Part shown: in pieces, positions 10,091 through 55,676 of the stretch
How the letters are laid out: each line of letters begins with the position of its first letter
How positions within the stretch are numbered: position 1 is the stretch's first letter
DNA from: Pseudanabaena sp. FACHB-1998
GTDB taxonomy: Bacteria > Cyanobacteriota > Cyanobacteriia > Pseudanabaenales > Pseudanabaenaceae
Reading direction: 5' to 3'
NCBI RefSeq assembly: GCF_014696355.1
Contig: NZ_JACJQA010000003.1
Span: forward strand, 1 to 64,000
DNA: 64,000 nucleotides
The notes under the pieces: generated by a model
Databases searched by the model: none
Told to the model about the DNA's origin: nothing
Seen by the model: the letters and a program-made list of their open reading frames with translations, nothing else
Program-made: the position numbers and the translations under genes

Positions 10091-10204
10091 TAGCTGTTGC
10101 CATTCTTGTTAGGACACAAAACCAGAAGACGAGTTGCGGCGCGAAGCGCCGCAACTCGCTTCTTGGGTTTTGATTTGTCCTAATGCAAGTGACCGCAGCT
10201 ATAT
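10089..10204. mobile_element. MITE family A copy (116 bp) with internal hairpin
   Basis: Left end TATAGCTGTTGCCATTCTTG followed by TTAGGACA. The right end read in reverse is TATAGCTGCGGTCACTTGCA followed by TTAGGACA. Inside is a long hairpin with core GGCGC-GAA-GCGCC. It has no coding capacity; near-identical copies lie at 30013 and 62418. Confidence 0.75.
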
Positions 10205-53825: not shown

Positions 53826-54827
53826 ATGAAACGTCGTCAGCTTTTAGTTACATTAGGTAGCGCTTTAATTGGGTTACCCATCCTTGGATTCTTGATTAAA
53901 GCGATCGCTCAATCTAAAACCCCAGCTTCATACGACCCAGCCGCAGCGCAATCTCCTCCAAATATTCCTAAGTCTTCAAAAGATTCTCAAGACCCCAAGA
54001 ACCTTGCTGATGCAAATACAGAAATTACTTTAGAAACTACCGAGGAACCTTTACTCCGCTTTGCAGCGATCGCAGATAATGGCTTTGGTAGTCCTGACCA
54101 GATGGCAGTTGCCAAGTCAATGTGGGAAACTTATCAGCAAAAGCCCTACGCCTTTGTCTTGATGGCTGGTGATAACATTTATTCCTATGGTGAGATCAAG
54201 TTAGCCAAAGCTTATTTTGAGGAACCCTATGCACCTTTGCTCAAAGAGAACGTGAAATTTTATGCAGTGCTAGGCAATCACGACATCATCAAATCGAATA
54301 ATGGTCTGGATCAGATAAATTATCCACTCTTTAATATGAGCGATCGCTACTATTCCTTCACTAAAGGCGATGTCAATGAAGGAACTGTGGAATTTTTTGC
54401 GATCGATACAAATCGTAATGCGCCTTGGGAGGCTCAACTTGCGTGGCTCGATCAGCAATTAGGCAAAAGTACGGCTCCTTGGAAAATTGTCTATGGACAT
54501 CATCCACTCTATTCATCAGGTCGGCATGGAAGCGATCCTGAATTAGCCTCAATGCTTGAGCCAATTTTTTCTAAACATAAAGTTACTTTGTACCTATGCG
54601 GACATGATCATGGTTATGAGCGATTTAAACCCATAAATGGCACTACCTATATTGTGAATGGCGGCGGCGGCGCACCTTTGTATAAATTTACGGGATCACC
54701 TCAAACGGCTTTTGTGAGTTCGCAGTTTAGCTTTATGACCTTTGATGTCTATCAAGATAAGATCATCACCAAAGCGATCGCTACCGATGGCAAAGTATTT
54801 GATCGCGCCATAGTTACCAAGATATAA
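53826..54827 (+). CDS. Exported metallophosphoesterase (purple acid phosphatase-like)
   Basis: 333 residues. The N-terminus 'MKRRQLLVTLGSALIGLP' has a twin-arginine motif and hydrophobic core, suggesting Tat export. The calcineurin-like fold shows all metal motifs: 'AAIADNGFGS', 'VLMAGDNIYSYG', 'AVLGNHD', 'IVYGHHPLYSSG' and 'YLCGHDHGYER'. The spacing resembles ACP5-type acid phosphatases. A periplasmic phosphatase role, perhaps for phosphate scavenging, is likely but the substrate is unknown. Its last 22 coding bases, stop included, form part of a 28-bp inverted repeat. Confidence 0.9.
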   Translation: MKRRQLLVTLGSALIGLPILGFLIKAIAQSKTPASYDPAAAQSPPNIPKSSKDSQDPKNLADANTEITLETTEEPLLRFAAIADNGFGSPDQMAVAKSMWETYQQKPYAFVLMAGDNIYSYGEIKLAKAYFEEPYAPLLKENVKFYAVLGNHDIIKSNNGLDQINYPLFNMSDRYYSFTKGDVNEGTVEFFAIDTNRNAPWEAQLAWLDQQLGKSTAPWKIVYGHHPLYSSGRHGSDPELASMLEPIFSKHKVTLYLCGHDHGYERFKPINGTTYIVNGGGGAPLYKFTGSPQTAFVSSQFSFMTFDVYQDKIITKAIATDGKVFDRAIVTKI

Positions 54828-54864
54828 ATTCGCACGGCAAATTTATATCTTGGTAACTATGGCG
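54806..54864. terminator. Inverted repeat copying the 3' end of the phosphoesterase gene, apex GC-ACG-GC
   Basis: 28-bp stem with one mismatch (54806-54833 / 54837-54864). The left arm contains the last 22 nt of the CDS including TAA, and the right arm is its reverse complement. Confidence 0.9.
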
Positions 54865-54920
54865 TTTGATGCTTATCATCAAACAACCTATAGTAAATTT
54901 ATCTTCACCAGTTAATCTCC

Positions 54921-55676
54921 ATGAGCTTATATCTGTACGCAATTTTGCAAGCTGAAAATCTAGATCTGATTCAAAATATTGATCTCAACGGGATGAATAG
55001 TCAGCCCATTCAGTTTCATGCAATTCCACCTTTTGCGATCGTCTACAGTGAAGCTCAACAGGAACGATATCTCGCTAGTCGAGCCAATCTGCTTGCCCAT
55101 GAGACGGTTTTAGAATCGCTTATGAAGGCGATCGATCCCTATCAGGCTGTACCATTGCCCTTGCAATTTGGTCTAGTTGTCGAAGAATGGGAAGAGGTGC
55201 AACGGGATCTTCTCATTCCTTACGAAGACCAACTTAAGGGATTGATTAATAACTTAATTGGCAAAAGGGAAGTAAGTGTCAAGCTCTTTTGGAATCAAAC
55301 GGAAGAGTTAAATCTGGCAGTACTGGAAAATCAAGATTTGCAGAAGCGGCGCGAAGCTCTAGTTGGCAAAATGCTAAGCATGGATGAAGCTATTTCCATT
55401 GGGCAGGACTTAGAAGCCGCGATTGAGCAACGTCAGCAGGTGATCGTTAAGACTTTTTTAGAAACTTTAAAGCCTCTGTCCTATGACTATGCAGAAGGTG
55501 AACTACTGACGGAAAATATGATTTATAACGGTTCATTTCTCATTGATTGGAATAAGGAACCTGAGTTTGCTGCAACCGTTGAAGCGCTTGACAAGCAATT
55601 TGAGAATCGTCTCCGAATTCGCTACAACGATTTCACTGCTCCCTACAATTTTGTAAATGTAGATCGCGAGCAATAA
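54921..55676 (+). CDS. GvpL/GvpF-family gas vesicle protein
   Basis: 251 residues matching the GvpL/GvpF family: 'LYLYAILQAENL' at the start, 'ETVLESLMKAIDPYQAVPLPLQFGLVV' and 'VSVKLFWN' in the middle, and 'YNDFTAPYNFVNV' at the end. GvpF/L are minor proteins needed for gas vesicle nucleation. No other gvp gene (gvpA, C, N, J, K) is in the window, so this copy is isolated from any cluster seen here. Its stop codon overlaps a GGCGC-core hairpin. Confidence 0.88.
   Translation: MSLYLYAILQAENLDLIQNIDLNGMNSQPIQFHAIPPFAIVYSEAQQERYLASRANLLAHETVLESLMKAIDPYQAVPLPLQFGLVVEEWEEVQRDLLIPYEDQLKGLINNLIGKREVSVKLFWNQTEELNLAVLENQDLQKRREALVGKMLSMDEAISIGQDLEAAIEQRQQVIVKTFLETLKPLSYDYAEGELLTENMIYNGSFLIDWNKEPEFAATVEALDKQFENRLRIRYNDFTAPYNFVNVDREQ

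Follow-up and report, generated by a model that had tools for sequence, protein, structure and literature searches.

An inverted copy of a gene's own end in Pseudanabaena sp. FACHB-1998 and its probable origin by template switching

A hairpin spanning the stop codon of a metallophosphoesterase gene in Pseudanabaena sp. FACHB-1998 (contig NZ_JACJQA010000003.1; positions 54806-54864 of the analysed window, which comprises the first 64,000 nucleotides of the contig) has as its right arm an inverted copy of the gene's own end. This arm was probably made, and has probably been kept matching, by template switching during replication. The mirror copy is present here and has no strong counterpart in 20 of 21 relatives, the exception being a hairpin that looks inserted. 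Other genes of the genus likewise mirror their own ends, and between sister species such hairpins show paired changes in the arms and inversions of the loop. From this pattern we infer the polymerase mechanism and the strand involved as well as, for the phosphoesterase locus, a direction of copying from gene to spacer and a recent date.

A near-perfect hairpin reaches into the phosphoesterase coding sequence

The metallophosphoesterase gene (positions 53826-54827, forward strand; an open reading frame of 333 aa matching Pfam PF00149 with an E-value of 3.4e-19) ends inside the hairpin, and this end is the putative source of the copied arm. A repeat search places the two forward-strand arms at 54806-54833 and 54837-54864 (28 nt each, 27/28 positions paired, 96% complementary) around the loop ACG at 54834-54836. 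The left arm consists of the last 19 sense bases, which represent the family's usual coding end, the stop codon TAA (54825-54827) and six further bases, while the right arm is the inverted copy of this gene end. Read from the tip, where the loop is closed by GC..GC to form a GC-NNN-GC motif, two GC pairs are followed by the single mismatch (C54831/A54839) and then by 25 unbroken pairs. The hairpin is thereby confirmed, with arms, pairing and loop as first described in an initial annotation of the window apart from small corrections. The 28-bp inverted arms around GC-ACG-GC proposed there hold with 27 of the 28 positions paired; of the "22 coding bases plus stop" assigned to the left arm, the 22 bases of coding sequence are correct, with the stop codon already contained in them (19 sense bases and TAA), so that the earlier wording counted three bases too many. 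Among the 40 stop-overlapping hairpins of the 398-kb contig, this one reaches deepest into the coding sequence (22 nt, followed by 15, 15 and 14 nt).

A 201-base query found no second copy in the genome of FACHB-1998, and a 24-mer of the arm had no other place among the 272 loci compared. The predicted RNA fold of positions 54800-54910 reaches -45.6 kcal/mol, compared with a mean of -15.3 for shuffled sequences (z -10.9; 0/200 shuffles as good). Five microRNA matches in Rfam all lie far below the gathering scores and were taken as chance matches to a perfect stem. Adjoining the right arm, the RNA fold contains a second small hairpin, GTTTGATG-CTTAT-CATCAAAC (54864-54884, forward strand). The remaining spacer (54885-54920, forward strand) includes a stretch, TATAGTAAATTTATC, that a local spacer alignment shows to be common to one relative, L020 (score 48, 95% null 29, 0/1000 shuffles as high). 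It is followed on the same strand by a gvpF/gvpL-like gas vesicle gene at 54921-55676 (PF06386, E 4.8e-56). Upstream of the phosphoesterase gene, on the opposite strand, lies a gene for a transposase of the PD-(D/E)XK nuclease family (PF12784; 52766-53710).

The gene end is shared across the genus

We searched 26 genomes of the genus for the phosphoesterase gene and read the gene ends of 22 orthologues, including that of FACHB-1998. Left out of these counts were weak or partial matches in G009, G013 and G020 (L025-L027), second matches (L029-L032) and, for G024, the upstream half L024, its gene end L028 being kept; no phosphoesterase match was found in G021. One of the orthologues, L016 in G005, has an in-frame TGA and may thus be a broken gene. 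The protein ends in FDRxIxTK in 20 of the 22 orthologues, FACHB-1998 included, the exceptions being L020 and L023. Because this end is usual in the family, the left arm is best read as old coding sequence. A Val codon near the gene end occurs in FACHB-1998 alone, the other 21 orthologues having Ile.

The whole stop codon lies inside a hairpin in eight of the 22 orthologues, of which FACHB-1998 and L020 mirror 9/9 sense bases and the other six between one and three. A search for an inverted copy of each gene's own end within 150 bases past the stop agrees with this count: the score is 51 for FACHB-1998, 39 for L020 and 9-24 for the other 20 (among them L011, whose sequence is partly N), and the score of 24 and the next best ones (L014-L019) correspond to 9-13 bases around the stop. 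This contrast with 20 of 21 relatives, together with a single-copy arm that encodes the usual coding end, supports the proposal of the initial annotation that the right arm was copied from the gene end. L007 has, 49-63 bases past the stop, 14 bases that match its own gene end in inverted orientation (p 0.024 among 22 rows).

The hairpin of L020 looks inserted, though the case is ambiguous. To the eye its arm is similar to one of the genus's repeat families, and the protein deviates from the consensus in its last residues. Palindromic repeats at the gene ends of L020 and of two orthologues of the 655-aa gene treated below (L178 and L196) likewise seem, by eye, to be inserted, and such insertions would supply the last codons and the stop, altering the C-terminus.

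An orthologous copy of the FACHB-1998 hairpin was not found among the relatives, the nearest of eight compared being 81-82% identical in aligned DNA, and the step from a hairpin-less to a hairpin-bearing locus was not seen among them. The gene tree, built without L016 and L028, gives the FACHB-1998 genome no firm place. Relatives that keep the right arm beside differing gene ends, an outcome that the initial annotation had named as speaking against copying, were sought as well. L010 and L007 do carry a reversed match to the arm (12/12 and 11/12 bases) beside differing gene ends, but with p-values of 0.019 and 0.071 among 34 comparisons these matches are not significant.

Other genes mirror their own last codons

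Three further genes of the contig, selected because FACHB-1998 has a gene-end hairpin there, were followed through the genus: a 655-aa gene, ispF and a VTT-like gene. The labels ispF, VTT-like and receptor-like or "kinase" (655-aa gene) are putative and were assigned by reading the sequences; L172-L173 (weaker matches), L190 (contig end) and L197-L199 (partial or weaker) were left out. A stop-spanning hairpin is present in 14 of 22 orthologues of the 655-aa gene, ten of which mirror 8 or 9 of 9 sense bases. L181, L182, L184, L185 and L186 each mirror their own, differing last codons, L176, L177, L183 and L189 mirror just one to three sense bases, and in L187 and L188, which share the end ENK, pairing is limited to two stop bases. 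For ispF, a stop-spanning hairpin occurs in 7/26 orthologues, five mirroring 5-9 sense bases and two 2-4; the ends GTGAAATAG, GTCAAATAG and GTGCAATAG each come with their own mirror across 8-9 bases. The VTT-like gene has such a hairpin in 2 of 24 orthologues.

Two ispF sisters provide the comparison that the initial annotation had called for at the phosphoesterase locus, namely a gene end shared by a strain that lacks the inverted copy. L213 mirrors its end, while L201, with the identical last ten bases GGTGCAATAG, has no mirror; the check is thus passed at a locus other than the phosphoesterase gene. In L213, the mirrored arm is still followed by TTTGTCCTAA, a sequence that also borders hairpin repeats at positions 10174 and 285077 of the FACHB-1998 contig, suggesting that the gene end overwrote part of an inserted repeat.

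Right arms were compared between species, using for each row its strongest stop-spanning hairpin, a choice that may favour long ones. The mean number of mirrored bases with a species' own as opposed to another species' right arm is 6.4 and 1.1 for the 655-aa gene, 5.6 and 1.1 for ispF, and 4.6 and 0.9 for the phosphoesterase gene. When right arms are swapped between species within each gene, the sum over 27 distinct rows falls from 157 to 48 mirrored bases, and 0/20000 shuffles reach 157. Without three element-like rows (24 rows of the four genes remaining) the fall is from 130 to 47 (0/20000); once the own-genome rows and the remaining VTT row are removed as well, 19 rows give a fall from 95 to 39 (0/20000). 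By gene, shuffles reach the observed value of the 19-row set in 2/20000 cases for the 655-aa gene and 27/20000 for ispF; the phosphoesterase gene alone, outside FACHB-1998 and L020 (three rows), gives no mirror signal (6659/20000). In the 655-aa gene and ispF, right arms mirror the last codons of their own species far better than those of relatives. Copying from the gene end is thus supported as a general process in the genus, as a step that lacks a close-sister example at the phosphoesterase locus.

Loops invert and arms change in pairs between sister species

Aligned DNA of the genomes G015 and G022 shows 92.6% identity. Among 152 hairpins in 460 kb of G015, both flanks were found for 77 in 480 kb of G022, where 39 sites hold a homologous hairpin, 25 no hairpin and 13 none that matches. 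The loops of the 39 orthologous hairpins are the same in 11 cases, exact reverse complements in 18 and otherwise different in ten; taking the 28 differing loops, 18 exact reverse complements have a chance probability of 5e-26 at 1/63 each. In the stems, 675 base pairs are the same, 47 have changed on both sides and are still paired, and 27 have changed on one side or are broken. The reverse comparison agrees, with flanks for 75 of 142 hairpins, 47 homologous hairpins, 16 same, 21 inverted and 10 other loops, and 801, 54 and 33 base pairs in the same order. Six pairings in two other clades, in which loci are partly repeated between pairings, add 55 hairpins with both flanks and 29 homologous ones (loops 11 same, 8 inverted, 10 other). 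For FACHB-1998 itself, an empty-site comparison against G015 and G022 yielded one and three hairpins with both flanks and no homologous hairpin. According to the available part of a study in yeast, homogenisation of arms and inversion of the spacer are the two marks of template switching at inverted repeats (PMC8604942). As loop inversions and paired changes match both of these marks, they favour template switching.

The genus is rich in GC-NNN-GC hairpins

A simple finder run on 398 kb of the contig, with genes taken as open reading frames of at least 90 aa, returned 254 strong hairpins, 205 of them without an arm mismatch and 171 with 3-nt loops, and none in a single order-2 Markov sequence generated from the contig. 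The 254 comprise 189 intergenic hairpins, 40 over a stop codon, 18 within open reading frames and seven at starts. The GC-NNN-GC motif, which the initial annotation had singled out at the phosphoesterase locus, proves to be the rule of the genus: it closes 145 of the 171 triloops, the contig background being 6.5% (share of GC in the dinucleotides that self-pair over a distance of three bases). Stable d(GC-GNA-GC) mini-hairpins are described in the available part of PMC4686876; their stability was rejected as the cause of the tips, GNA or TNC loops making up 56/109 of the triloops in repeat-sharing hairpins and 11/62 in singletons (expectation about 8 in 64). GC closure is common to both groups (100/109 and 45/62).

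In stretches of nine genus genomes, which surround the phosphoesterase locus rather than being random samples and of which some contigs measure several Mb, the density is 20-65 hairpins per 100 kb; larger stretches of the two poorest genomes, G015 and G022, give 33 and 30 per 100 kb. Other cyanobacteria, represented by single 20-kb samples of differing G+C from 20 genomes of 17 families, hold ten hairpins in 400 kb, 15 samples having none, and the Markov controls of these samples contain one hairpin in a single control. E. coli has one in 50 kb. Two hairpins with GC-GCA-GC tips occur in a member of another cyanobacterial family (L264, G048), and Pseudanabaena may thus not be alone in showing the pattern. 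Extrapolation to 4.78 Mb would give about 3000 hairpins for the FACHB-1998 genome.

A 12-mer is shared with another hairpin by 143 of the 254 contig hairpins, and between G015 and G022 whole elements with terminal repeats are present in one genome and absent from the other. Many hairpins of the genus are whole inserted palindromic elements. In G015 (L101-L103, L108-L127), terminal repeats, for example AGTAGCTAGGCGCAATTAAATATAAAACCC and AGTTCGGGTTAAGCTGG, enclose a central perfect hairpin in MITE-like elements whose presence differs from G022.

The hairpin does not resemble a canonical terminator

The initial annotation had suggested that the copied arm makes a terminator from the gene's own tail, which is not supported here: the right arm has no T-run longer than three (26 of the 40 stop-overlapping hairpins of the contig have a run of at least four), a consensus terminator scan made no call at the hairpin site, and the gvpF gene follows close behind in the same direction. 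Like an intrinsic (Rho-independent) terminator, the hairpin is a stem-loop directly behind a gene; unlike one, it lacks a U-tract and a GC-rich stem, has its left arm within the coding sequence and is closely followed by a same-direction gene. The gvpF gene starts 93 nt past the stop in FACHB-1998 and 5-7 nt past it in four relatives. As the genes are so closely spaced in those relatives, co-transcription of the phosphoesterase gene and gvpF is probable, and no hairpin is required in them. A promoter-like TTGATG-17-TATAGT is found at 54866-54894, between the hairpin and gvpF, in the spacer that has TATAGTAAATTTATC in common with L020; promoter-like matches in the region number five, near the expectation from shuffles (3.2, sd 1.9).

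The predicted effect is a strong mRNA hairpin between phosphoesterase and gvpF, for which a reduction of read-through or a protection of the upstream 3' end is more likely than canonical termination. Cyanobacteria lack Rho, and in one studied species most transcription units are not ended by known pathways, as stated in the available part of PMC13289151. In a Rho-less phylum, such a stem might even so have a part in shaping a 3' end or shielding it. Ribosomes translating the coding left arm would hold it open, and the hairpin may also be neutral.

Discussion

Taken together, the data make fold-back template switching, proposed in the initial annotation, the best explanation of the right arm by its marks, loop inversion and paired change, although the event itself has not been seen happening. 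Once the gene end has been copied, the nascent strand would pair at a short quasi-palindrome past the stop codon, of the GC-NNN-GC type or similar, its partner being either its own sequence or the other nascent strand. The polymerase would then copy the arm just made before returning to its proper template; repeated events would make the two arms alike, whichever of them serves as template, and would invert the loop. For E. coli, switching of nascent strands at quasipalindromes has been described (PMC7202029, available part). At our locus, the arm is a reverse-complement copy of a pre-existing neighbour, the spacer measures 3 nt and the arms are near-perfect, as template switching predicts. 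Several observations speak against it, among them the absence of a mirror signal in the phosphoesterase gene outside FACHB-1998 and L020 and the many inserted elements of the genus. Because of the mismatch next to the tip, priming by two GC bases alone would start poorly; 4/14 stop-spanning hairpins of the 655-aa gene and 2/7 of ispF mirror just 1-4 of 9 sense bases; and the gene-end hairpins of L020, L178 and L196 look, by eye, inserted, with the stop codon brought in, which is the opposite direction.

These last cases lend themselves to a reading in which the gene received its last codons and stop from a palindromic repeat, REP-like or MITE-like, that inserted at its end. The genus is indeed repeat-rich, as the shared 12-mers and the whole elements differing between G015 and G022 attest. 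At the phosphoesterase locus, the arm has no second place in its own genome or the 272 loci and encodes the protein's usual end, and for these two reasons that end was not given by an element; insertion is already largely refuted here and must be considered quite improbable. Unlikely, too, is an older duplication of the gene end in the spacer that was inverted or converted in place, with the unique Val codon returned from the spacer arm. The Val codon itself, the 14-base inverted match of L007 and the reversed arm matches of L010 and L007, whose spacers measure 94 nt against 93 nt in FACHB-1998, would fit such a history. The p-values of the reversed matches, however, are uncorrected for 34 comparisons, and some other relatives reach equally low ones; an ancestral copy common to L007 and L010 was rejected, the alignment not being significant.

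Selection for an RNA stem could have built the right arm, with ordinary compensatory mutations keeping it. The strong fold and the excess of paired over one-sided changes are compatible with this, but it leaves unexplained the exact loop inversions (18/39) as well as 25 unbroken pairs that extend 22 bases into the coding region and lack a T-run, so that we grant it only a very small chance of being correct. Fold-back chimaeras are reportedly a known artefact of whole-genome amplification, and the genome is a draft in 64 contigs. An assembly or amplification artefact is nevertheless extremely improbable: such hairpins are dense in all nine genus genomes sampled and lie at orthologous sites in eight, and a fresh artefact would carry no mismatch.

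Template switching as the source of the arm at this locus may be one instance of a wider process. We suggest, tentatively and with some doubt, that Pseudanabaena undergoes hairpin-directed switching at an unusually high rate, which keeps thousands of perfect GC-NNN-GC hairpins, flips their loops nearly at random between sister species and goes on mirroring or overwriting gene 3' regions with their final codons and stops, so that C-termini and gene-end stems would co-evolve in single steps. As a cause of the hairpin abundance, loss of the hairpin nuclease SbcCD is not supported for SbcD: G000, G009, G019 and G022 each have two separate SbcD-family matches above the family cut-off, any second match in the other cyanobacteria searched lying below it.

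Template switching as such is already known, as are small inversions in plastids (PMC6824564) and stop codons supplied by REP sequences (PMC3733652), both as presented in the available parts of these papers. Its scale in one genus and the mirroring of coding ends appear to be new. Among the matches listed from the open-access literature, none was a cyanobacterial study of template switching, flipped loops or gene-end mirroring, and a word search of the main text of inverted-repeat surveys, as far as it was available, did not return Pseudanabaena. The origin of long perfect RNA stems is open, and the available part of PMC8794818 proposes their one-step creation by template switching for RNA genes. 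Pseudanabaena offers many cases (68 orthologous hairpin pairs were compared, partly overlapping), and in some hairpins one arm is anchored by codons, which allows source and copy to be distinguished. Such copying would be a route by which gene ends and C-termini change several bases at once. The genus is also a natural system for asking why a lineage gains or tolerates many near-perfect hairpins despite encoding SbcD-like nuclease subunits.

Comparison with known systems

Plastids descend from cyanobacteria. Chloroplast small inversions in hairpin loops (PMC6824564, available part) show the same flips between species over stable stems and are mostly intergenic; in Pseudanabaena, by comparison, the arms change in pairs, the loops are mostly 3 nt and GC-closed, and coding ends are included. 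REP palindromes and MITEs (PMC3733652, available part) are likewise short intergenic palindromes near gene ends, and REP ends often supply stops. They differ in that the FACHB-1998 phosphoesterase hairpin has no second copy and that tyrosine transposases (PF01797, Y1_Tnp) are few, with 2, 1, 0 and 3 matches in four genus members, the genome of FACHB-1998 having two; RAYT-driven REP spread was rejected as a weak candidate on these counts. Closest is template-switch mutation as described in the available parts of work on E. coli (PMC7202029), coding genes of yeast (PMC8604942) and RNA hairpins (PMC8794818), which shares with our hairpins the perfect arms, the flip of the loop to its reverse complement, the short spacers and the making of new stems from existing sequence. 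While those papers deal with single events or reporters, Pseudanabaena presents a large standing population of hairpins together with mirrored last codons and stops.
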